A DNA stretch of 31,581 nucleotides from a virus: positions 1 to 31,581 of the IMG/VR virus record IMGVR_UViG_3300017751_000111; one strand, 5' to 3'. This document shows positions 1 to 24,541 of the stretch, piece after piece. Each line of letters begins with the position of its first letter. Positions within the stretch are counted from its first letter, which is position 1. Position numbers and translations under genes: made by a program. The notes below the pieces were generated by a model, which saw only the letters and a program-made list of their open reading frames with translations, had not been told where the DNA came from and searched no databases.

Positions 1-2204
1 ACATAAGCGCAACATCAGGTTCAGGAGGATCAAGTGGTACTTCAGGTAATGCAGGTGAAGCGGGAGCAAGTGATGCAAGTAATACATCAGGTTCAAGTGG
101 TTCAAGCGGTACTAATGGTGATGCCGGTCAATCAGGTTTAAGTAACACTTCAGGTTCCTCAGGTACATCAGGTGATGATGGTACTTCAGGGATAAGTGCT
201 ACTTCAGGTTCAGGAGGATCATCAGGTACATCAGGAGATGCAGGTAATGCAGGTTCAAGTAATATAAGCGCAACATCAGGTTCAGGAGGATCAAGCGGTA
301 CTTCAGGTAACGCAGGTGTAGCAGGTTCAAGTAATGTAAGTGCAACATCAGGTTCAGGAGGTTCAAGTGGTACTTCAGGAGACGCAGGTGTAGCAGGATC
401 TAGTAACATAAGTGCTACTTCAGGATCAGGAGGTTCTTCAGGTACTTCAGGTGGTGCAGGCGTAGCAGGTTCAAGTAATATAAGCGCAACATCAGGTTCA
501 GGAGGATCAAGCGGTACTAATGGTGATGCAGGTAATGCAGGTTCAAGTAATGTAAGTGCTACTTCAGGTTCAGGAGGATCAAGTGGTACAAGTGGAGACG
601 CAGGTGTAGCAGGTTCAAGTAATGTAAGTGCAACATCAGGTTCAAGTGGTTCATCAGGTACAACTGGTATTATAGGTGGAAATGGTGAAAGTGCAGAAAG
701 TGGTTCAAATGGTTCTTCAGGATCAAGCGGTACATCAGGTAATGCTGGTAATGCTGGAGCAAGTGCTTTAAGTAACACTTCGGGTTCAGGAGGTTCTTCA
801 GGTACTTCAGGTAACGCAGGTGTAGCAGGTTCAAGTAACATAAGTGCTACTTCAGGTTCAGGAGGATCAAGTGGTACTTCAGGAGACGCAGGTGTAGCAG
901 GTTCAAGTAATGTAAGTGCAACATCAGGATCAGGAGGATCAAGTGGTACAAGTGGAAATGCAGGTGTAGCAGGTTCAAGTAACATAAGTGCTACTTCAGG
1001 ATCAGGAGGTTCTTCAGGTACCTCAGGTAATGCGGGAGCAAGTGCTTCAAGTAATACAAGTGGTTCATCAGGTTCAACAGGTACTTCAGGTAATGCTGGT
1101 AATGCTGGAGCAAGTGCTTTAAGTAACACTTCAGGTTCAGGAGGATCATCAGGTACATCAGGAGATGCAGGTAATGCAGGTTCAAGTAATGTGAGCGCAA
1201 CATCAGGTTCAGGAGGTTCTTCAGGTACTTCAGGTAATGCAGGCGTAGCAGGATCTAGTAACATAAGCGCAACATCAGGTTCAGGAGGTTCAAGTGGTAC
1301 TAGTGGTGCAGCAGGAGCTAGTGCTTCAAGTAATACTTCAGGATCAAGTGGTTCAGCAGGATCTTCAGGTACTGCAGGTGCTGCGGGAAATAGTAAAACA
1401 AGTAATACTTCAGGTTCAAGTGGTTCATCAGGTACAAGTGGTGTTGTAGGTACTGGGGGTGGAAGTGCAACAAGTAACACTTCAGGTACTTCAGGTTCAA
1501 CAGGGTCAAGTGGTATAGGTGGAGCTGGTGGAGTATCGGGAGGATCAGGTTCAGCAGGTACCTCAGGTACTTCAGGATTAAGTAATACAAGTGGTTCATC
1601 AGGTTCAGCAGGTACTTCAGGTTCAAGTGGTGTCGTAGGTGGGTCAGGTGCTTCAATTACAATCACTACTCAAAATGATTTGTTAATTGATGGAGCTACT
1701 TCAAATACACTAGATACAAGTAGAACTCTTAGTATTAATAATCCATTTAGATTAGGACAAGATAGAACCAGTAACTCAGGAAATATAGAATACTCAGTTC
1801 CTTCAGCAGTAAACAACCAAAGTGGTGAAATTATATTTACTGGTAAAGGTAATGGAGGAACTACTCCAGCTTTTGGAGATATTCTAGTTTTGGATCAAGG
1901 ATTTTGGTATAAAGCCCAAGGTGATGATGTTGCTACTTCAACTGGAATAATGGGTATTTCTTTAGGTACTAACCCAACATTAGATGGAGTTTTAATAAGA
2001 GGAATGTTTAGAACAACAAAATCATGGGGGTTAGGAGGTGGAGAACCTTTTTATCTATCAACTACATCAGCTGGAAATGGACAATCTTCAGCTCCAACAA
2101 CCTCAGGAGATATTGTTAGAATAGTTGGGTATGAAATATATGTAAGTGGATCTAATAGGTTATATTATATATGTCCTGATAATACTTGGATTGAACTTGC
2201 TTAA
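1..2204 (+). CDS. Collagen-like, Gly/Ser/Thr-rich phage fibre protein (5'-truncated)
   Basis: The reading frame is open from the window edge (first whole codon at 3) to the stop at 2202-2204, about 734 residues, and its true start lies upstream. Up to about base 1650 it is built of Gly-X-X triplets rich in Ser, Thr and Ala (GSG-GSS-GTS-GNA-GVA-GSS), broken regularly by N(I/V)SATS. The remaining C-terminal part, from about GASITITTQND onward, is an ordinary mixed beta-type domain. Its 'PFYLSTT...GDIVRIVGYEIY' stretch resembles C-terminal domains I associate with phage fibre and virion-surface proteins. I infer a long thin tail or head fibre with a C-terminal receptor-binding or trimerising knob. 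It stands 12 bases before a methyltransferase gene and upstream of four sugar-transfer genes, so the Ser/Thr repeats may be glycosylated. GTG at 1191 is not a convincing start because the repeats continue upstream in frame. Confidence 0.85.
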   Translation, partial: ISATSGSGGSSGTSGNAGEAGASDASNTSGSSGSSGTNGDAGQSGLSNTSGSSGTSGDDGTSGISATSGSGGSSGTSGDAGNAGSSNISATSGSGGSSGTSGNAGVAGSSNVSATSGSGGSSGTSGDAGVAGSSNISATSGSGGSSGTSGGAGVAGSSNISATSGSGGSSGTNGDAGNAGSSNVSATSGSGGSSGTSGDAGVAGSSNVSATSGSSGSSGTTGIIGGNGESAESGSNGSSGSSGTSGNAGNAGASALSNTSGSGGSSGTSGNAGVAGSSNISATSGSGGSSGTSGDAGVAGSSNVSATSGSGGSSGTSGNAGVAGSSNISATSGSGGSSGTSGNAGASASSNTSGSSGSTGTSGNAGNAGASALSNTSGSGGSSGTSGDAGNAGSSNVSATSGSGGSSGTSGNAGVAGSSNISATSGSGGSSGTSGAAGASASSNTSGSSGSAGSSGTAGAAGNSKTSNTSGSSGSSGTSGVVGTGGGSATSNTSGTSGSTGSSGIGGAGGVSGGSGSAGTSGTSGLSNTSGSSGSAGTSGSSGVVGGSGASITITTQNDLLIDGATSNTLDTSRTLSINNPFRLGQDRTSNSGNIEYSVPSAVNNQSGEIIFTGKGNGGTTPAFGDILVLDQGFWYKAQGDDVATSTGIMGISLGTNPTLDGVLIRGMFRTTKSWGLGGGEPFYLSTTSAGNGQSSAPTTSGDIVRIVGYEIYVSGSNRLYYICPDNTWIELA
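192..1334 (+). repeat. 72-bp (24-codon) tandem repeats inside the fibre gene
   Basis: Seven units start at 192, 264, 336, 408, 480, 552 and 624 with exact 72-base spacing, each opening with an ATA or GTA codon followed by Ser-Ala-Thr-Ser-Gly. Further units start at 840, 912 and 984, and two more at 1191 and 1263, with shorter irregular Gly-X-X blocks between them. A related partial copy starts at base 3. Every unit is a multiple of three, so copy-number change keeps the frame. The end coordinate is approximate because later units degrade into irregular triplets. Confidence 0.85.
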
Positions 2205-2216
2205 AAATTTAATATT

Positions 2217-2786
2217 ATGGAATATATATCCCAAAGTTTAACATTTGAAGAAAGTAAAATATTATTTACACATCCCTTTGATGTAAACGATGAATATCAA
2301 GTAATGATGGATTGGGAAGATACTTTAATGTCAGCATCTGCCGCCTATGCTTGCGAAGGAGGGGGGGATATTCTTGAAATAGGATTTGGAATGCATATAT
2401 CTGCTGATTATATTCAATCTCATAGTATTAATTCCCATACAATTATTGAAAACCATCCAGACATACTCATTAAAGCAAATGAATGGGCAGCGGATAAACC
2501 TAATGTAACTATAGTAGAAGGAGATTGGTATGATATAAAAGATACTTTAAGTACTTATGATGGGTTATTTTATGATACTTATGGAGATGATAATATGCAA
2601 TATTTTGCAGATTCATTACCTTCACTAATGAATGAAGGTGGAAAAGCTACTTGGTGGAATAATATACCTAGTAGTAGTAATTATTATGGAATATCTAATG
2701 TTGTTTATGATATCCATAATGTTAACCCCCCACAAAATAGTTATTTTAACCATAAAGAATATTATTTACCTAAAAAACAGTTTTAA
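2217..2786 (+). CDS. GAMT/RMT2-like SAM-dependent methyltransferase
   Basis: This is a 189-residue class I methyltransferase. Motif I is DILEIGFGMHISADYIQ at residues 51-67, preceded by QVMMDWEDTLM at 29-38. IIENHP (76-81) would hold the acidic residue that binds the SAM ribose, and FYDTYGDD (118-125) follows. The combination (V)MM-x-WE, LEIGFGM, IIE-x-HP and F/Y-DTY is what I know from guanidinoacetate N-methyltransferase and the fungal arginine delta-N-methyltransferase Rmt2. The family call is fairly firm, but the substrate is not: guanidino or arginine groups are the family precedent. It starts 12 bases after the fibre stop and ends 3 bases before the next gene, so it is co-transcribed with both. 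Methylation of a fibre arginine, or of a small guanidino compound, are both possible. Confidence 0.72.
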   Translation: MEYISQSLTFEESKILFTHPFDVNDEYQVMMDWEDTLMSASAAYACEGGGDILEIGFGMHISADYIQSHSINSHTIIENHPDILIKANEWAADKPNVTIVEGDWYDIKDTLSTYDGLFYDTYGDDNMQYFADSLPSLMNEGGKATWWNNIPSSSNYYGISNVVYDIHNVNPPQNSYFNHKEYYLPKKQF

Positions 2787-2789
2787 ATA

Positions 2790-3494
2790 ATGGCGACATT
2801 TACTCAAGCAACAAGTGGATTTGGTGTAATCCTGGGGCAAGTTACTACAGGATGGACTAATGTTCGTAACCTTAGTACAGGAACTTCAGTAAGCCAAGGA
2901 ACAATAAATAATTTTTCAAGTTGTGGTGTTGGTGTTTTTTCTGGAAGAGGTGCACCAACAAACCGTATATGTAGAACATTTGGATGGGCCGATTTATCAG
3001 CCTATGCTCCTAATATAACAACACTTTCTTTTGATTTACAATCCCATTATGTTAGCAGTGCAGGTTTAAATGCAGTTGATTGTATAGTTTGTGAAAGTTT
3101 TGCTTATAGTAATGCAGCTAGTACAACTCTATCAGCCTCAGACTTTAACATAAGTGGTGGTTGGAATGTAAACAAAACTTATTCTTCATCTACTTCTTGG
3201 GTAAGCACTCCATTTTCACTTACAGGCAATTCGACTGCTATATCAGATGCAAATTCTCAAGGTTATATTAATTTTGTAGTAATTAATAATACTTATGATT
3301 ACTTTGATATAGACCCTGGTGCTGCTCCTGTAAATCTTTTTGGTGGTGTTAATCTAACCCCTGCAAATAATGATGTAAGTGGAAATTATAATGCGGGTTA
3401 TCCAAATTACTTAAATGGAATAAGTGTGCTTGTAACTGTAGATAATATTAATGATGTAGGTACTTCTACTATAGATAACATAAATGATGTTTAA
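2790..3494 (+). CDS. Beta-rich probable virion surface protein, function unknown
   Basis: The 234-residue product is rich in Ser, Thr, Asn and Gly with alternating hydrophobic residues and few charges, the composition of an all-beta fibre tip or decoration protein. I recognise no catalytic motif and no signal peptide. The C-terminus carries a short duplication, DNINDV-GTSTI-DNINDV, encoded by the last 60 bases. It starts 3 bases after the methyltransferase stop and lacks a Shine-Dalgarno sequence, so translational coupling is likely. Position between fibre and glycosyltransferase genes suggests an adhesin or fibre-associated part. This is context only, and homology to a known fold would need a structure search. 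Confidence 0.55.
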   Translation: MATFTQATSGFGVILGQVTTGWTNVRNLSTGTSVSQGTINNFSSCGVGVFSGRGAPTNRICRTFGWADLSAYAPNITTLSFDLQSHYVSSAGLNAVDCIVCESFAYSNAASTTLSASDFNISGGWNVNKTYSSSTSWVSTPFSLTGNSTAISDANSQGYINFVVINNTYDYFDIDPGAAPVNLFGGVNLTPANNDVSGNYNAGYPNYLNGISVLVTVDNINDVGTSTIDNINDV

Positions 3495-3554
3495 TAGCTT
3501 GGATATGTTATAATTTTTACTTATATTGGTTAAATAGTTTTAAAAAAGTGTTTT

Positions 3555-6269
3555 ATGAAAAAAATTTTAATCATTGCACCCCACTTATCAACTGGGGGGC
3601 TTCCACAATATTTAACAAAAAAAATAGAATTATTAAAAGAAGAATTTAATATTTATTTAGTTGAATGGAATGATTCTACTGGGGGTAAACTAGTAGTACA
3701 AAAAAATAAAATAAAAAACTTATTACCTAAAAATAATCTTTTTACATTTGGGGAAGATAAAACAGAATTATTTAATATAATTAATAAAATTCAACCTGAT
3801 ATTATTCATTTAGAAGAAATTCCTGAATATTTTATGGATGATAATATAGCTAGAAAATTATATTCTGTAGATAGGGATTATTTTTTAGTTGAGACTTCTC
3901 ATGATTCTTCAATGAATACAGATAATAAACTTTTCTTTCCTGATAAGTTTATGTTTGTATCTAACTGGCAAATAGATCAGTATAAAAACATAGATATACC
4001 TAAAATATTAGTAGAATATCCAATTGAATATACCCTACGCCCTGATAGAGTAAGTGCTTTAAAACGCTTAAACTTAGACCCATCAAAAAAACATATTCTA
4101 CACATTGGTTTATTTACTTCTAGAAAAAATCAAAAAGAATTTTTTGAGTATGCAAGAGCTTTACCTGAATATGAATTTCATAGTGTAGGAAATCAAGCCG
4201 ATAACTTTAAATGGTATTGGGAACCCTTAATGAAAGAAAAACCTGATAATTTAACATGGTGGGATGAAAGAACAGATGTTGAAAATTTCTACCAATCAAT
4301 GGATTTATTTTTATTTACATCTAGGGGAACAGCTAATGATAAAGAAACAATGCCTCTAGTTATTAGAGAAGCTCTATCATACCAAATACCACAACTATTA
4401 TATAATTTAGAAGTTTATCAAAATTATTTTGATAGCTATGATTCTATTAATTATTTAGACTTTAATGATTTCGATAAAAATGTTTCATTAATTAAAAATC
4501 AATTTAATAATTCTGCTGAAATATTTGAGGAAGAAGAAGCATATGTTGTTTGTACCTACCCAGAAACCCAAGCTGTTGTAGATACAACTATAGAATGTAT
4601 AAAAGCTTTAAGAAAAGAAAGTAATCGAAAAATAATAATTTCAGCACACTGTCCAGTTCCTAAAGAACTCCAAGATATGGTTGATTATGTATTTTATGAA
4701 AAAAATAATTTATTAACAAAACATACATTTTATTCAGGGTATTGGATGAGAGGAAACCAATATGATACTCATGTTAATTTAAGAGGTGAGGATAATGATA
4801 GATATCATGGACCAGCTTGTTATACTTCATTTTATAATCCAGCAACATTTGCAAAAAACCTAGGGATTAAAAAATTATACTATATCAATTTTGATTATAT
4901 ATTAAAAGATAAATCCCATATAGATTATGTTTCAAATAAATTAAATAATCATGATGTTTACTTTGGAGAAAATATAGCACAAGAAGGCAATTGCTATTTT
5001 ACATATTTTTTTGGAGCTAGACCAGAAGCTATTTTAAACCATTGCCATTTTATTGAAGATGAAAACCAGTATAATAGTTTAATGGGTAAACATGGTGCTG
5101 AGTCTAATGGTATTGAGAATTTATATTACCATATATTTAAAAATAATAAAAACAGTTTTATTGAAACTAGAGAAAAATTTGAAAGTGATGTAGAAAAATA
5201 TTTTGATTTTAAAGATTATTCAATGGTTGAATATTATACTATCCTTCCTACGGATGTTGACAATCATTTTTGCCCCTGGATAACTATTTCTAATGCTAAA
5301 GAAAGCAAAGATATTTATTATACTGTAGAAAAGAATGGAGAAACTATTATTAATAGGTTATTAGAAGTTAGAGGGAAGTATCATTTTTGGGATTTAATAA
5401 AATATGATTTGAATGATTTATTTACAGTTACATTTGATGTTAGAGATACTGTAACAGGAGAAACAGTAAAATACCATAAATTTGAATTAAATCAAGAATA
5501 TTTTTCAAATATAATGCCAGATAATGGTATGTTTAATTGGAAAGGAGATAGAAGTAGATATAATCCTAAAATTAAATTACTACATTTAGTAACAGACCCA
5601 AAAAATAATAAAAAAGAACAAAGGTCAATAAATAATTTAAAAGAATTCTGCAATAATACGGGAATTATATATGATATGAGGGTGAATAAAATATGGAAAG
5701 AATTACCCCCATCAGAGAATTGCCACAGACCAGAACATATATCTTTAACCCCTGCTCCTATAGGAAATGGTTTTGGAAAATTAACTCCAGGTCATTATGG
5801 GTGTTACTTAGCTCATAAAAATGCTATATGTTTAGATGATAATAAAGATTATGATTTTATTTTAATTTTTGAAGGCGATACTATTGTAGATTCTGACATT
5901 GAAGAATTATACAACTCTTTATTTAGATTTAATAATATAGCTCTTGCTGAAGGTTTAGATTTAGTTGGGTTTGGTAATCCCCCAACATCTACAAATATTA
6001 AAGGTAACAAAAATCAAGACGTTTATTGTGATGTGATACCTTTTGTACCAGCACAATCATATTTAATACCTAATAAAAGTTTAAGTAATTGGAAAGAAAA
6101 ACTAGAAAACAAAAAATGGGAAGCTTGGGATTTATGGATTATGAATATAGGACAAATGAAATCGGGAATAGCTGAAAAAGTTTATACTAAACACCTCCCA
6201 GGATTTAGTTTAGTTGATCAGATTGAAAAAAATAAAGATAATGATAACCCCTTAATATTTACTGATTAA
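3555..6269 (+). CDS. Multidomain glycosyltransferase (GT-B domain, middle GT-A-like domain, GT25-like domain)
   Basis: The 904 residues appear to hold three parts. Residues 1 to about 320 look like a GT-B (GT4-type) enzyme: ILIIAPHLSTGGLPQYL at the start, HILHIGLFTSRKNQ, then the ETMPLVIREALSYQIP acceptor-side motif. Residues about 330-640 are a separate region (YVVCTYPETQAVVDTTIECI...) that reads like a nucleotide-sugar (GT-A) or glycan-recognition domain, with KLYYINFDYILKDKSHI in the place of a DXD-bearing strand. Residues about 670-904 resemble GT25 (LPS biosynthesis) enzymes: LTPGHYGCYLAHKNAI followed by FILIFEGDTIVDSD. The ATG overlaps no upstream gene (60-base gap). The stop overlaps the next ATG by one base (TAATG), so the set is translationally coupled. 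No signal peptide or membrane helix is visible, so it should act in the host cytosol. Specific sugars cannot be read from sequence. Confidence 0.75.
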   Translation: MKKILIIAPHLSTGGLPQYLTKKIELLKEEFNIYLVEWNDSTGGKLVVQKNKIKNLLPKNNLFTFGEDKTELFNIINKIQPDIIHLEEIPEYFMDDNIARKLYSVDRDYFLVETSHDSSMNTDNKLFFPDKFMFVSNWQIDQYKNIDIPKILVEYPIEYTLRPDRVSALKRLNLDPSKKHILHIGLFTSRKNQKEFFEYARALPEYEFHSVGNQADNFKWYWEPLMKEKPDNLTWWDERTDVENFYQSMDLFLFTSRGTANDKETMPLVIREALSYQIPQLLYNLEVYQNYFDSYDSINYLDFNDFDKNVSLIKNQFNNSAEIFEEEEAYVVCTYPETQAVVDTTIECIKALRKESNRKIIISAHCPVPKELQDMVDYVFYEKNNLLTKHTFYSGYWMRGNQYDTHVNLRGEDNDRYHGPACYTSFYNPATFAKNLGIKKLYYINFDYILKDKSHIDYVSNKLNNHDVYFGENIAQEGNCYFTYFFGARPEAILNHCHFIEDENQYNSLMGKHGAESNGIENLYYHIFKNNKNSFIETREKFESDVEKYFDFKDYSMVEYYTILPTDVDNHFCPWITISNAKESKDIYYTVEKNGETIINRLLEVRGKYHFWDLIKYDLNDLFTVTFDVRDTVTGETVKYHKFELNQEYFSNIMPDNGMFNWKGDRSRYNPKIKLLHLVTDPKNNKKEQRSINNLKEFCNNTGIIYDMRVNKIWKELPPSENCHRPEHISLTPAPIGNGFGKLTPGHYGCYLAHKNAICLDDNKDYDFILIFEGDTIVDSDIEELYNSLFRFNNIALAEGLDLVGFGNPPTSTNIKGNKNQDVYCDVIPFVPAQSYLIPNKSLSNWKEKLENKKWEAWDLWIMNIGQMKSGIAEKVYTKHLPGFSLVDQIEKNKDNDNPLIFTD

Positions 6270-7228: not shown

Positions 7229-7863
7229 AACGTAATACCCGTTTAGTTAGTATAAAAAATACCCCTATGATGATATTTGAGGGGCCTGAATGCATATCAG
7301 ATGATATAGTTAAATATAATGATTTTTGGGAATTTAATTTGTTTAACTGTTTTAAACAATACTTTCCAAAAGAAGGATTAATGTTAGATATTGGAGCTAA
7401 TATAGGTGCTCATTGTGTACAATTTAAACATTATTTTCCTGATTTAAAAATATGGGCTTTTGAACCTTTTTTTGAAAATTATAACCTATTAAAAACTAAT
7501 ACTGATAGGTATAATGATGTTCATTGTTTTAATGTGGGGGTAGGAAGTAATAATTCAATGGTCCATTTTGGGGGTGAAGAAGAAAAAAACTCAGGAGTAG
7601 TAAAAGTTGTCCCTAATGGTAATATTACTAATTTAGTTATGGCTTTAGATTCAATTTCTTTCCCTGAACCTATTAAATTTATCAAAATTGATATAGAAGG
7701 CCATGAATTATCTGCTTTTGAGGGTATGAAAGAAACTATATTAAAATATAAACCTCTAATATGGTTAGAAGATAATAAAAAAACAGCAGTCTCCTATTTG
7801 GAAAAATTAGGATATAAAATAATTTTAAAACAAACCGCAACTAACGATTATTTAATGGTATGA
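7225..7863 (+). CDS. FkbM-family SAM-dependent methyltransferase
   Basis: The 212-residue enzyme has motif I LDIGANIGAH at residues 54-63, an acidic residue after the second strand (WAFEPF, 77-82), and the FkbM hallmark IKIDIEGHE at 153-161. FkbM enzymes O-methylate hydroxyl groups on sugars and secondary metabolites, and are common in glycan loci. Here it sits inside a four-gene glycosyltransferase run, joined by ATGA overlaps on both sides. I infer capping or modification of the sugar chain made by the flanking enzymes by O-methylation. Start chosen for the ATGA coupling and because no upstream in-frame alternative is needed. Confidence 0.88.
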   Translation: MKRNTRLVSIKNTPMMIFEGPECISDDIVKYNDFWEFNLFNCFKQYFPKEGLMLDIGANIGAHCVQFKHYFPDLKIWAFEPFFENYNLLKTNTDRYNDVHCFNVGVGSNNSMVHFGGEEEKNSGVVKVVPNGNITNLVMALDSISFPEPIKFIKIDIEGHELSAFEGMKETILKYKPLIWLEDNKKTAVSYLEKLGYKIILKQTATNDYLMV

Positions 7864-9059
7864 AAGAAATTTTAGTAAAAGAATATAATAATTTAATTAA
7901 AAAACCAATTAAATCTTTATTTCCCACAAATAATATTTATAGCACTTTTGTTAATGGGGCTAAAATTGAAATTTTAGGGGATATAAAGAAAAAATATAAA
8001 GTTCAGTTTATCGATAGAAACACAAATAAACTTCTTCATGAAACAGAAATAAGTAATAATATGTGGTCTAAACTAAATAAACAATACTATATTGATTGTT
8101 TAATTAAAATAATAGATTTAGAAACTAATGAAATAATAGAACATACATTTAATGCAGGGGATAAAAAAGTTTATATACACTTTGCTTCAAAAGCTTTAGG
8201 TGATACTATAGCGTGGATGCCATATGCCGAAGAATTTAGAAAAAAACATAAATGTAGATTAATTGTATCAACATTCCATAATAAAATGTTTGAAGAAAAT
8301 TACTCAAACATTGAATTTATTGAACCTGGAACTATCCAAAAGGATTTATATGCTATGTATGAGGTAGGGTGGCATTATAATGAAGAAGAAAAAATTGATT
8401 ATAATAGAAATCCTTTAGACTTTAGAAAAATTCCATTACAAGGGGCAGCCTATAGCATTTTAGGACTAGAATCAAAAGAAATTAAACCTAAACTAACATT
8501 TAAAAATACAGGATCTACTATAGAAGGTGATTATGTGGTTATAGCACCTCATGGTTCAGCTCATGCTAAGTATTGGAATCGAAAAGATGGATGGCAAACT
8601 GTAATAAATTATTTAAATAATAAAGGCTACAAAGTAGTAATGATTACCCAAGAACCCTTAGGAGATAAGTGGCATGATTCTAAATTAGGAGGTACTTTAA
8701 CAGGGGTTATTGATAAAACAGGTAACCACCCTCTAAGTGAAAGAGCAAATGATATAATGAATGCTAAAGCATTTATAGGTATTGGAAGTGGTTTAAGTTG
8801 GTTAGCTTGGGCTTTAGAAACACCTGTAGTTATGATATCTGGATTTAGTGAAGCCTATAGTGAATTTGAAGATTGCGAAAGAATATCTCCTCCCAAAAAC
8901 AAATGCTCAGGATGTTTTAATAGAATAAGGTTAAACGGTGGGGATTGGGAGTGGTGTCCTGACCATAAAGATACAGATAGGATGTTTGAGTGTACTAAAT
9001 CAATAACACCCGATTTAGTAATAAATTCTATAAACAATCAATTATTAAAAAGTTTTTAA
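7860..9059 (+). CDS. TibC/BAHT-like protein O-heptosyltransferase (GT9-related)
   Basis: The 399-residue product matches the plan of bacterial autotransporter heptosyltransferases. An N-terminal beta domain (about residues 1-100) is followed by a GT-B catalytic core starting VYIHFASKALGDTIAWMPY (104-122), whose Asp in GDT (115) is the expected base. VVIAPHGSAHAKYWN (226-240) is the nucleotide-binding entry, and FIGIGSGLSWLAWALETPVV (305-324) is the heptosyltransferase donor loop. A four-cysteine finger follows: C349-x2-C352, C366 (EWCPDH) and C378 (FECT). TibC and its relatives use such a finger to bind iron, and transfer heptose to Ser side chains of repetitive autotransporters. The gene closes the modification cassette, 60 bases before the tail block. 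Substrate inference: the Ser/Thr-rich fibre repeats encoded at 1-1650. The donor sugar in this host is unknown. Confidence 0.82.
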   Translation: MKEILVKEYNNLIKKPIKSLFPTNNIYSTFVNGAKIEILGDIKKKYKVQFIDRNTNKLLHETEISNNMWSKLNKQYYIDCLIKIIDLETNEIIEHTFNAGDKKVYIHFASKALGDTIAWMPYAEEFRKKHKCRLIVSTFHNKMFEENYSNIEFIEPGTIQKDLYAMYEVGWHYNEEEKIDYNRNPLDFRKIPLQGAAYSILGLESKEIKPKLTFKNTGSTIEGDYVVIAPHGSAHAKYWNRKDGWQTVINYLNNKGYKVVMITQEPLGDKWHDSKLGGTLTGVIDKTGNHPLSERANDIMNAKAFIGIGSGLSWLAWALETPVVMISGFSEAYSEFEDCERISPPKNKCSGCFNRIRLNGGDWEWCPDHKDTDRMFECTKSITPDLVINSINNQLLKSF

Positions 9060-9426: not shown

Positions 9427-12033
9427 ATGGCAGAAACATTAATTTCCCCAGGAGTATTAGCAAGAGAAAATGATCAATCCCAGATTACTTCTCAACCAAT
9501 ACAGGCTGGTGCAGCGCTAGTAGGACCAACCGTAAAAGGTCAAGTCAATATTCCAAAACTTATAACTACTTATAGTGAATACCAAGCTAATTTTGGTACT
9601 ACTTTTGAGAGTGGTTCTGTAAATCAGATGGATGAATATACTTTCTTCACATCAATTTCAGCATATAACTACTTCACAAACGGTGGTACATCATTAATTG
9701 TTACTAGAGTAGCATCAGGTGATTTTACATCAGCAACTTCTTCAAGAATTTTTAATGACGTAGAAAGTGGAAATATTCCACCAGCTACTGATTTATTTGG
9801 TTCTTATACTTCAGGAGGTAGTGATGGTACAGCAGGTACTTATGTAGGTAAACCAACAACAGTATCTCCAGCAGGAGGAACTGGTTTAACCGTAACAGTA
9901 GTAACTAACACAGCTAACGGAAAAATTAAAACAGATGCTGATCAGCTTGTGCCTGGAATTTCTACAAACACTGTAGTTGCCGGGGCAGAAGTATATCCTG
10001 GAGTATCATTAACAAATGCTGGTGGTACTGATGGAAGTGGAGCCATAGCTACTGTAACAGTAACAGGAACAACTGCTCCAACGGTAACTGGTATAACAAT
10101 TACAAATCCTGGATCAGGATATGTAGATACTGACCAATTATCAATAGCAGGAGGATTATTAGGAACTGGACAATTAATAAATGATGGTACTAATATACTT
10201 AGTATATCTAACGGAGCTTCATATAACATTGGTGGTGGAGCACCAGCAACTGGTTTAGCTACTACAGTATCTCCAGCAGGAGGAGAAGGAGCTACAATTG
10301 ACGTAACATCAGATGGAACAAATGTTTCAGTATTAACAGTTGAAAATATTGGTACTGGTTATTCAGATGGTGATGTAGTAAATGTTTCTCAAGCAGCTTT
10401 AGTTGCCGCTGGGTTTGCATCAGCAGCTGCGGGTGGTATAGACATTACATTAGGTAGTGCAAACCTCCAAAACTCAGGAGAAGTAATAATTGATGTAGCA
10501 GAAACTGATTTATTAGTAGAAGTAGCATCTATAACAACTGTAGCAGAAGGTACAGGATATGCTATAGGTGATGTAGTAACAGTAGCGGCAGCAGAAATAG
10601 GTACCCCAACAGCTGACTTAGTAGTAACTTTAGTAGATGCTGACATTACAGATGAAAATGCTTTCACATTAGAAACAATGGGTGAAGGTATAATTATGAA
10701 TAGTGCTGGTGATGAAGCATCAACAGGAGCCCTAACAAATGGTACATCAGATAATATTAGATGGGAGATAGTTTCTCCAAATACATCATCAGGTACATTT
10801 AGTGTAGTTATTAGACAAGGTAATGATAATACAAGATCAAAATCAGTACTAGAAAGCTTTAATAATGTATCATTAGATCCAAAATCTTCAAATTATATTT
10901 CAAGAATAATAGGTGATCAAAAACAAGTAATTAGAGGATCAGGAACAGATGTTTATTTACAAACAACAGGATCATTTGCTAATGCTTCAAGATATGTAAG
11001 AGTAAAAGAAGTTAAATTTAAAACTCCAGACTATTTAGATAATAGTGGGATAGCAAAAGATCAATACACAGCTTCTATACCAGTAGCGGCTTCAGGAACA
11101 TTTGGAGATGCAGTAGGTACCATTTTAACAGGAACTGGTAAATATTACCAATATATTACTGGAAATGATACTCAAGGATTAGTAGGAAGTGATTATACAA
11201 CAGCTTTTAACATATTAGCTAATAAAGATGATTTTAAATATAATCTCATCTCAGCTCCAGGATTATACCAATCAGATTATAGCTCAGTATTAAATACTTT
11301 AATTGCAAATACTGAAAATAGAGGAGATAATATTGTAGTATTAGATCTTGAAGCTTATGCTTCATCAATAACAGCAGTAAGTACTACAGCAGCCGCTCAA
11401 GATACATCATATGCAGCTTCATATTGGCCTTGGTGTATGGTAACTGATCCAGATTCAGGACAAAGAGTTTGGGTACCAGCAGGAACATTAATTCCAGGAG
11501 TTTATGCTAACAATGATAGAACAGCAGAAGCATGGTTTGCTCCAGCAGGTATTAATAGAGGTGGATTAGGTCAAGTAATTCAAGCTGAAAGAAAATTAAC
11601 TCAAGCTAATAGAGATACATTGTATACAGGTAAAGTAAATCCAATAGCAACATTCCCAGGAAGAGGAGTTGTAGTATTTGGACAGAAAACATTACAAAAT
11701 ACAGCAAGTGCTTTAGATAGAGTTAATGTTAGAAGATTGCTTATTGCCCTTAAAAACTATATTTCTCAAATATCTGATAATTTAGTATTTGAACAAAATA
11801 CAGCAGCAACAAGAAATATATTCTTAACACAAGTTAATCCATACCTAGAATCAGTACAACAAAGACAAGGTTTATACGCGTTTAAAGTTGTAATGAACGA
11901 TTCAAATAATGGACCTGACGTAATTGATAGAAATGAATTGAGAGGTGCTATATACATTCAACCTACAAAAACAGCAGAATTTATATACCTAGATTTCAAT
12001 ATTCTTCCAACAGGAGCTGAATTTCCTGCATAA
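9427..12033 (+). CDS. 18: Tail sheath protein (T4 gp18-like) with a large repetitive insertion
   Basis: At 868 residues this is clearly longer than T4 gp18 (659). Residues 1-110 are a typical sheath start (ISPGVLARENDQSQI..., AALVGPTVKGQ..., YNYFTNGGTSLIVTRV). The C-terminal half, from about residue 440, carries the conserved assembly domains and ends NELRGAIYIQPTKTAEFIYL-DFNI. Between about residues 135 and 410 lies an insertion of low-complexity beta repeats with a GxGYxxGDxxxV theme (PGSGYVDTDQLSI, IGTGYSDGDVVNV, EGTGYAIGDVVTV). Two 21-base stretches coding for TVSPAGG are identical (9859-9879 and 10264-10284). Sheath subunits form the contractile outer tail, and the insertion probably faces outwards. 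The gene is followed directly by the tube gene, as in T4. Confidence 0.93.
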   Translation: MAETLISPGVLARENDQSQITSQPIQAGAALVGPTVKGQVNIPKLITTYSEYQANFGTTFESGSVNQMDEYTFFTSISAYNYFTNGGTSLIVTRVASGDFTSATSSRIFNDVESGNIPPATDLFGSYTSGGSDGTAGTYVGKPTTVSPAGGTGLTVTVVTNTANGKIKTDADQLVPGISTNTVVAGAEVYPGVSLTNAGGTDGSGAIATVTVTGTTAPTVTGITITNPGSGYVDTDQLSIAGGLLGTGQLINDGTNILSISNGASYNIGGGAPATGLATTVSPAGGEGATIDVTSDGTNVSVLTVENIGTGYSDGDVVNVSQAALVAAGFASAAAGGIDITLGSANLQNSGEVIIDVAETDLLVEVASITTVAEGTGYAIGDVVTVAAAEIGTPTADLVVTLVDADITDENAFTLETMGEGIIMNSAGDEASTGALTNGTSDNIRWEIVSPNTSSGTFSVVIRQGNDNTRSKSVLESFNNVSLDPKSSNYISRIIGDQKQVIRGSGTDVYLQTTGSFANASRYVRVKEVKFKTPDYLDNSGIAKDQYTASIPVAASGTFGDAVGTILTGTGKYYQYITGNDTQGLVGSDYTTAFNILANKDDFKYNLISAPGLYQSDYSSVLNTLIANTENRGDNIVVLDLEAYASSITAVSTTAAAQDTSYAASYWPWCMVTDPDSGQRVWVPAGTLIPGVYANNDRTAEAWFAPAGINRGGLGQVIQAERKLTQANRDTLYTGKVNPIATFPGRGVVVFGQKTLQNTASALDRVNVRRLLIALKNYISQISDNLVFEQNTAATRNIFLTQVNPYLESVQQRQGLYAFKVVMNDSNNGPDVIDRNELRGAIYIQPTKTAEFIYLDFNILPTGAEFPA

Positions 12034-12049
12034 GAATTAGAAAATATAA

Positions 12050-12057
12050 TATTTATA
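12050..12057 (+). promoter_or_regulatory. TATTTATA motif before the tail tube gene
   Basis: TATAATATTTATAATTGAA stands 27 bases before the tube ATG in the 51-base gap after the sheath gene. Same core and flanks as the other copies. This spacing equals that before the 16457 gene. Confidence 0.45.
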
Positions 12058-12084
12058 ATTGAATAAAAATAAAACAAACATAAA

Positions 12085-12573
12085 ATGGCAGTATTAGACC
12101 CAAACGAAATATTTTTCACCGCTTTTGAACCCAAAGTAGCTAATAGGTTTATAATGTATGTTGATGGTTTTCCATCTTACATTATAAAGGGTGTTAGTGG
12201 ATTAGGTTTTGCACAAGATGAAATTACATTAAATCATATCAATACTTATAGAAAAGTAAAAGGTAAATTAAGATGGAATGATATTACTATGCAGTTATTT
12301 GATCCAATTACACCATCAGGTGCTCAAGCAGTAATGGAATGGGTTAGATTACACCATGAATCAGTAACAGGTAGAGATGGGTATAGTGATTTCTATAAAA
12401 AAGATTTAACTATAGATGTATTAGGTCCTGTAGGTGATGTAGTTAGTGAATGGATTATAAAAGGTGCATTTATTAAAGATGGTTCATTTGCCGATATGAA
12501 TTGGGACACTGATGGTGAAGCAATGAATATTGACTTAACAATCGGAATGGATTATTGCGTATTAAATTTCTAA
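12085..12573 (+). CDS. 19: Tail tube protein (T4 gp19-like)
   Basis: The 162-residue protein has the size of T4 gp19 (163) and the family pattern: NRFIMYVDGFPSYIIKGVSG near the start, the central LNHINTYRKVKGKLRW-NDITMQLFDPI stretch, and the end INLTIG-type strand (MNIDLTIGMDYCVLNF). Tube subunits stack as hexamers inside the sheath and conduct DNA. It follows the sheath gene and is followed by a strong terminator, so sheath and tube form one late unit. A-rich leader, no Shine-Dalgarno sequence. Confidence 0.93.
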   Translation: MAVLDPNEIFFTAFEPKVANRFIMYVDGFPSYIIKGVSGLGFAQDEITLNHINTYRKVKGKLRWNDITMQLFDPITPSGAQAVMEWVRLHHESVTGRDGYSDFYKKDLTIDVLGPVGDVVSEWIIKGAFIKDGSFADMNWDTDGEAMNIDLTIGMDYCVLNF

Positions 12574-23281: not shown

Positions 23282-24541
23282 ATGTTTTGGTTAGTAGAGT
23301 CTAAAGATCAACTTAAAAGGTTTTATAATAGTAATTATAAAGAAGCATTTGTAGAGATAATTCCCTACAATAATAAAATACACCCAACCCAAAATAAAGT
23401 TTGTGCTATTTATATTCGTCCGTTATTATCAACAAAAGGATTTATAATACCCATTTCGCATAGTGAGACTTTAAATACTAATATAGACAATATTACTCGC
23501 GTATTAACAAAATATAATAAGTTATATGTACGTGATAAAAAAGAATTTTTACACTATTTTCCTTTAAAAACTCTCTTCGACATAACACTCAATTCGAGTA
23601 CGTATATACAAGAACACACACAAACCCACTCCTACTTCTATAGCAAGATGGGTGATAAAATAGATATAAACCGCATTATTCCGATAGTAAAACATTATGA
23701 ATATTGTGAAAAAACTTTTCATGATTTAAAAAATAAAATAAATGAACCAATCAACGACTTTTACAACACAAAAGCCTCAGTGGTATTCAACGCCGTGGAG
23801 CGAAGTGGTATACGAATTAATAGAGAAAAATTTGAATCGTACTTTCACCCTATCGATGGAGAGTATGCCTACACACAATTCAACTTCAAAACCCTCACAG
23901 GAAGACCAAGTAATAGATTTAAAGGAGTAAATTATGCAGCTATTTCCAAAGATGACGACAGTCGAGAAAGTTTTATCGCAAGTAATGATTGCTTGTTTGA
24001 AATTGATATATCCGCTTATCATCCTACTTTGTTGGCTAAATTGGTTGGTTATGATTTTGTGGAGGAAGACATTCACGCTGCCTTTGCAGAAATGTATAAA
24101 GTGGATTACAAAAAAGCTAAAGAACTAACATTTAAACAAATGTATGGTGGGGTGTTTGAACAATATAAAGATTTAGAGTTTTTCAAAAAAATGACAGTAT
24201 ATACTGATGATTTGTGGGATCGTTTTCAACATGAAGGCTCAATTGAATGTCCTATTTCTAAAAAAATATTTTACAAAGATGAGTTAAGTGATATGAAACC
24301 TCAAAAACTCTTAAATTATCTGTTACAAAATTTGGAGACCGCATATAATGTTTGTATATTATGGGAAATAATAAAGCTATTAAAAAATTGTAAGACCAAA
24401 TTAGTACTTTACACATACGATAGTTTTCTTTTTGATTTTGATAAAGAAGAAAAGGATGTGATGGAAAGTATTATAAATTTGTTTAAACAATATAAATTAA
24501 AAATTAAAACTAATTATGGAGACACTTACAATTTCAAATAA
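23282..24541 (+). CDS. Compact family-A-like DNA polymerase
   Basis: The 419-residue protein shows the three family A palm and finger motifs in order: motif A LFEIDISAYHPTLLAKL (metal Asp 242), motif B KKAKELTFKQMYGG (277-290), and motif C LYTYDSFLFDF (Asp 380), where the usual HDE is reduced to YDS. FKTLTGRPSNRF and VNYAAISKDDDSRESF (residues 202-231) match the template-binding region of this family. The first ~130 residues (FVEIIPYNNKIHP, AIYIRPLL, FIIPISHSETL) look like a worn-down 3'-5' exonuclease domain without visible catalytic acids. It is about half the length of Pol I or T7 polymerase (704). Whether it is the replicative enzyme (T4 uses family B gp43) or an accessory one cannot be judged without the rest of the genome. 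Confidence 0.72.
   Translation: MFWLVESKDQLKRFYNSNYKEAFVEIIPYNNKIHPTQNKVCAIYIRPLLSTKGFIIPISHSETLNTNIDNITRVLTKYNKLYVRDKKEFLHYFPLKTLFDITLNSSTYIQEHTQTHSYFYSKMGDKIDINRIIPIVKHYEYCEKTFHDLKNKINEPINDFYNTKASVVFNAVERSGIRINREKFESYFHPIDGEYAYTQFNFKTLTGRPSNRFKGVNYAAISKDDDSRESFIASNDCLFEIDISAYHPTLLAKLVGYDFVEEDIHAAFAEMYKVDYKKAKELTFKQMYGGVFEQYKDLEFFKKMTVYTDDLWDRFQHEGSIECPISKKIFYKDELSDMKPQKLLNYLLQNLETAYNVCILWEIIKLLKNCKTKLVLYTYDSFLFDFDKEEKDVMESIINLFKQYKLKIKTNYGDTYNFK

Follow-up and report, generated by a model that had tools for sequence, protein, structure and literature searches.

The virus record IMGVR_UViG_3300017751_000111, analysed here over its whole length of 31,581 nucleotides (the window), is a 31.6-kb record with contractile-tail and T4-like replication genes. 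Upstream of the tail sheath it encodes a TibC-like enzyme (Table 1), which we consider likely, from sequence and gene context, to be a TibC-type GT-B O-glycosyltransferase acting on serines in a giant collagen-like tail fibre of the same phage. Genes for such enzymes and for (G-[ST]-S)n proteins are linked in phages and in chromosomes, and the link is seen in both search directions. A preliminary description of this DNA, which had taken the enzyme for an autotransporter-type heptosyltransferase, overlooked the collagen-like Ser/Gly protein that lies at the left edge of the window and is the likely acceptor.

The enzyme and its family

The open reading frame (ORF) 7860–9059 matches the NCBIfam model TIGR04414 with 325.4 bits (cut-off 200, E = 4e-97, residues 24–392), and TibC (4RAP) was the sole match in a sequence search of the PDB (E = 5e-61). 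The AlphaFold2 (AF2) model has a mean predicted local distance difference test score (pLDDT) of 91.4 and contains the TibC-type N-terminal β-barrel, the Pfam model TibC_1st scoring 17.3 bits, below its cut-off of 27. In Foldseek the best structural match is again TibC, with a template-modelling (TM) score of 0.82 over 384 columns (E = 2e-37). Among relatives the ratio of non-synonymous to synonymous change is approximately 0.1–0.26, synonymous change being about fourfold to ninefold higher, and the ORF is a real gene under purifying selection. By these comparisons the enzyme is a full-length TibC relative, which agrees with the family assignment in the preliminary description. An ordinary lipopolysaccharide (LPS) heptosyltransferase, or another sugar–lipid enzyme altering the host envelope, would fall in the same GT9 superfamily, and weak similarity to RfaQ, WaaC and WaaF is indeed present. 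The scores for RfaC/F/Q are 15–38 bits against cut-offs of 134–467, so that the better match to LPS enzymes that had been named as refuting was not seen; the TibC barrel and Cys finger are present, and the TM scores are 0.51 for WaaF, 0.43 for WaaC and about 0.55 or less for other GT9 proteins. The LPS assignment was rejected, and we regard an envelope-modifying role as extremely improbable.

Residues were compared with those published for TibC (PMC4358343). The catalytic base D115 (TibC Asp110) and the four finger cysteines are kept in all 58 homologues. The TibC donor residues Thr226, Lys230, Arg286 and Trp305 correspond to S233, K237, R295 and W314; the serine is a conservative change that also occurs in four of 13 classic enzymes. 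The retention of Arg295, Lys237 and Trp314 indicates that the donor is probably an ADP-sugar, of which ADP-heptose is a possible example. The ORF, the cysteines and the GDT and GSGLSWLAWAL motifs are all present as first described, and the donor loop is what was called the 'HG-type' motif (APHGSAHAKYW); its H231 is usual in the clade of the window enzyme, where classic enzymes have Gln. As for the proposed metal finger, the second point named for refutation was answered only in part: the four cysteines, counterparts of those of the TibC iron finger, stand at the sequence level and lie inside a confident TibC-like model, and any bound metal is putative.

A tree of 58 sequences places the 13 classic enzymes together in a single clade (support 100/100) and spreads the 45 others across the branch. 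The window enzyme accordingly groups in a sister branch of the classic autotransporter heptosyltransferases (BAHTs), found in phages and a few chromosomes and so far uncharacterised. With TibC and AAH (BAHT, TIGR04414) it shares whole-length homology, the predicted fold, the catalytic Asp, the donor Lys and Trp and the four-Cys finger, and O-linkage to Ser is presumed. It differs from them in its sister-clade position, in having a different thumb, in G309 at the Pro300/Ser294 position (Pro300 in TibC), in Trp363 where classic enzymes have Phe, and in its partner, a Gly-X-Y repeat protein. No adjacent autotransporter partner was found in the window or its relatives, and the BAHT label given to the enzyme earlier does not hold; for this half of the family, 'autotransporter heptosyltransferase' is probably a misnomer in the databases. 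The family name and the homology to TibC would fit a true adhesin heptosyltransferase acting on host surface proteins, for example to block other phages, but the separate clade, the missing autotransporter and the conserved position of the gene, beside the tail and surrounded by structural genes, make this very unlikely.

Relatives are encoded in at least 218 viral stretches, and the phage tail-module setting noted at the outset is thus not a peculiarity of one genome; among deposited phage records they occur in four of 50,697. Chromosomal hosts are Methylococcales, Polaromonas, Arenicellales and another gammaproteobacterium, and an even sampling of Gammaproteobacteria gave two genomes with a relative out of 369, both known already. 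Since the chromosomal copies form two lineages among the phage copies in the tree, the repeat-linked clade is likely to be old and to have been exchanged between phages and chromosomes.

Association with collagen-like repeats

For the tail modules we counted, by cluster, those enzyme-bearing phages whose upstream sequence was long enough. Repeats are present in 23 of 25 such clusters, compared with two of 26 tail relatives without the enzyme (Fisher 4e-10). In nine of ten chromosomal members an exported or lipobox-bearing protein of the (GTS)n/(GSS)n type lies 8–172 bp away in either orientation, export being judged by eye from the N-termini, and in the tenth a poly-Ser protein lies beside the enzyme gene. 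At one chromosomal locus (L219, 4185–7554) the TibC-like gene is flanked on both sides by repeat proteins, one (GSS)n and one (GTS)n. At 12 classic BAHT loci no protein of either kind was found, the neighbours being mostly large AIDA-like repeat proteins. Within Methylococcales the pattern (G[ST][ST])5 occurs in four of seven genomes with the enzyme clade and in four of 194 others; in G717, G811 and G815 it lies in the gene adjacent to the enzyme.

The reverse search led to the same association. Of the viral contigs retrieved solely through the repeat pattern, 16 of 50 at 20 kb or more and seven of eight at 100 kb or more have the enzyme, compared with none of 17 control contigs and none of seven at 100 kb or more (Fisher 0.0014 for 7/8 versus 0/7), and with the four of 50,697 among phage records at large. 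One contig (L151) had the enzyme without a repeat in the first view, and its remainder proved to hold repeat ORFs of 2357 and 571 residues, as predicted.

The window repeat protein has at least 733 residues, including 200 Ser, 76 Thr, 189 Gly and seven Pro, and a repeat protein upstream of the enzyme is conserved in relatives. Over 5,959 triplets, X is Thr in 41% and Ser in 26%, and Y is Ser in 64%, so that Ser precedes Gly, as at one mapped TibA site; TibC acts on Ser, not Thr, at N-S-G and T-S-A (PMC4358343). In phage G001 the repeat protein reaches about 3,000 residues (coordinates in two overlapping stretches), and the repeats of L046 score 481 bits for Pfam Collagen. Gene position and weak tail-fibre matches suggest that the protein is a tail fibre, and the genomic evidence supports it as the acceptor of the enzyme. 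In Mel-JY01 (L088, 739–2298) the deposited annotation places a minus-strand gene over an apparent plus-strand repeat ORF.

Two other targets have to be weighed against the repeat protein. The enzyme adjoins the sheath gene in nearly all tail-module phages and sheaths vary in length (507–900 residues), which would suit an enzyme that modifies another virion protein, such as the sheath directly downstream, with the collagen-like fibre a mere neighbour. Chromosomal copies, however, keep the repeat protein and have no sheath, in Mel-JY01 the enzyme is more than 20 kb from the sheath and beside repeat ORFs, and immuto-like phages have a sheath and lack the enzyme. We therefore consider this explanation unlikely. 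Glycosylation of hypermodified phage DNA bases would have precedent in that phage glycosyltransferases frequently target DNA (see also PMC12619734), but members of the TibC family modify Ser, the gene lies among fibre and tail genes, and the chromosomal copies stand beside repeat proteins; we give it almost no weight.

Several observations count against serine glycosylation of the fibre by a TibC-type enzyme. The 23 positive clusters include one (L033) that is positive by a weak match alone, the strict rule giving 22 of 25, and the significance tests count related clusters as independent. A relative of 34% identity (L090) has no repeat within 14 kb; 34 of the 50 repeat contigs of at least 20 kb (mostly fragments), and one of the eight of at least 100 kb, lack the enzyme; and L167, on an 11-kb contig, has repeats and a 2-oxoglutarate (2OG) oxygenase but no enzyme there. 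Conservation does not extend to the thumb residues through which TibC assembles into a dodecamer: where TibC has the hydrophobic tip of its β-hairpin thumb (F265 and V266), tail phages have GDKWHDSKLGG. The adenine-contacting Arg, which speaks for an ADP-sugar in the tail phages, gives way to other residues in most chromosomal and fused relatives, and the donor may therefore vary. Finally, the supply of ADP-heptose in the presumed hosts is doubtful. HldE domain II (E = 1e-35) was found in just two of 199 Flavobacteriaceae genomes, so that a host of this family would rarely supply the sugar, which bears out the caution already voiced over the donor. The Bacteroidota host then assumed is not evident from the window itself. 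In its tail tube the window comes nearest, among isolates, to Microcystis phage Mel-JY01 and Flavobacterium phage immuto, and the location of two relatives in Flavobacteriales bins, where binning error is possible, hints at the host.

A phage-encoded ADP-heptose pathway was considered and not established. G001 and G002 encode a stand-alone HldE-II-like protein of 134 residues, which scores 102 bits against a cut-off of 181.5, and no GmhA was found alongside it. In G001 (L258) this nucleotidyltransferase (10064–10468) has a UvsE/UvdE endonuclease nearby (196 bits, 11307–12245). The 'cytidylyltransferase' neighbour in Mel-JY01 is not HldE and was ruled out. The huge phage LR756504 carries a GmhA above cut-off (251 bits; L264, 12084–12653), 27 kb from its TibC-like gene; no heptose pathway cluster was recognised there.

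The cassette and its variants

Table 1. Features of the window, with positions in nucleotides unless residues are given
Feature	Position	Strand	Remarks
Collagen-like Gly-X-Y repeat fibre (proposed acceptor)	1..2204	+	Frame from base 3, open at the 5' edge of the window; Pfam Collagen 29.4 bits
Methyltransferase-like protein, 189 aa	2217..2786	+	Weak Methyltransf_25, below cut-off; found in some cassettes
Cassette protein, 234 aa, no assigned function	2790..3494	+	
Multidomain glycosyltransferase, 904 aa	3555..6269	+	N-terminal GT4 domain; C-terminal GT25-like domain at 5547-6266
GT4 glycosyltransferase, 319 aa	6269..7228	+	Counterpart fused to TibC domain in L089, L151
FkbM-family methyltransferase, 212 aa	7225..7863	+	Optional cassette member
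TibC-like O-glycosyltransferase, GT9/GT-B fold, TIGR04414	7860..9059	+	399 aa, ATG start; base D115; donor residues S233, K237, R295, W314
GDT motif	Residues 114-116 of the enzyme		
GSGLSWLAWAL motif	Residues 309-319 of the enzyme		
Four-Cys metal finger (putative)	8904..8993	+	Codons C349, C352, C366, C378; aligned to TibC Cys339/342/358/370
Tail sheath, 868 aa	9427..12033	+	Setting
Tail tube, 162 aa	12085..12573	+	Setting
Baseplate hub-like protein, 248 aa	12675..13421	+	Setting

The gene order in relatives runs from the repeat protein through the GT4/GT25 enzyme, the GT4 enzyme, the optional FkbM methyltransferase, the TibC-like enzyme and a small ORF to sheath, tube and hub. Fusions of the enzyme occur with a GT4 domain (L089, L151), with a methyltransferase domain (L010) and, in Mel-JY01, with GT4 plus further domains. 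The C-terminal domain of the 904-residue neighbour matches the profile of GT25, a family of collagen galactosyltransferase-like enzymes, with 26.6 bits in L006 (cut-off 24) and with 18.2 bits, below cut-off, in the window; its model (pLDDT 76, medium confidence) is nearest to human COLGALT1 and mimivirus R655. Sheath length ranges from 507 to 900 residues among relatives, while the tube is up to 99% identical. Elsewhere in the window, a 419-residue ORF (23282–24541) has apparent family A DNA polymerase motifs and a weak PHROG match (16.5 bits), and could be a shortened or divergent polymerase.

Two lineages (L041–L043 and L056) are exceptions to the Ser-rich repeats. Pro, Gln and Tyr abound in their collagen and Ser is scarce, and between the collagen and the glycosyltransferase they encode a DUF6445 protein and a 2OG-Fe(II) oxygenase; neither was seen in the other enzyme-bearing tail loci examined. 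We infer that the hydroxyl may here be made, not encoded. In L041 (1–7095) and L056 (3–5046) the collagen, with a PA14 domain in L041, is followed by GT2–methyltransferase, DUF6445 and 2OG-Fe(II) oxygenase genes, possibly a phage collagen hydroxylation cassette. At L167 a 2OG oxygenase gene comes after that of a very long (G-S/T-S)n protein (2–5094).

Proposed modification and related systems

In the mechanism that we propose, the enzyme would act in the infected cell on the still unfolded chain, placing the first sugar on the Ser of X-Ser-Gly. The companions (the GT4 and GT25 domains, the 319-residue GT4 enzyme and the FkbM methyltransferase) would lengthen and methylate the glycan, and the sugar-coated repeats would form a stiff, hydrated and protease-resistant fibre for which proline is not needed. 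A broader proposal is that TibC-type O-glycosylation of proline-free, Ser/Thr-rich collagen triplets is a widespread, previously undescribed phage and bacterial system, in which the sugar, instead of (hydroxy)proline, stabilises the triple helix, and that related phages switch between this form of the fibre and one with proline hydroxylation. This we offer tentatively, at somewhat less than even probability.

In bacterial collagens the preferred residue at Y is Thr (31.6% of Y positions, all bacteria), in contrast to the Ser and the near absence of Pro found here. The enzymes that glycosylate BclA of Bacillus spores differ from those of the window cassette. What BclA shares with it is bacterial collagen-like repeats that bear glycans (review, PMC8968730). 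Mimivirus (L230, R699, R655; PMC9546862) likewise has a virus collagen-like protein with its own glycosyltransferases, and the cassette GT25 domain is structurally nearest to COLGALT1 and R655. For mimivirus L230 and R699 the substrate is hydroxylysine, with UDP-glucose as donor (PMC9546862), whereas here the repeats are Ser-rich, the enzyme is of the TibC type and the viruses infect bacteria. Mycobacteriophage capsids and tail tubes are glycosylated by phage enzymes (Freeman et al., 2023, as cited in PMC12619734); as that source presents it, the target is a C-terminal part of the capsid or tube as opposed to a repeat fibre, and the likeness lies in the phage-encoded glycosylation of virion proteins. 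Among the papers searched we found none that links TibC-type enzymes to phages or names these repeats as their target, and nothing relevant on Mel-JY01 or on the repeat motif.

The analysis assigns a likely acceptor to the unstudied half of a known enzyme family and suggests that many environmental phages carry a collagen-like fibre that is glycosylated. It bears on how collagen may be stable without proline, and it yields a simple peptide substrate for testing.
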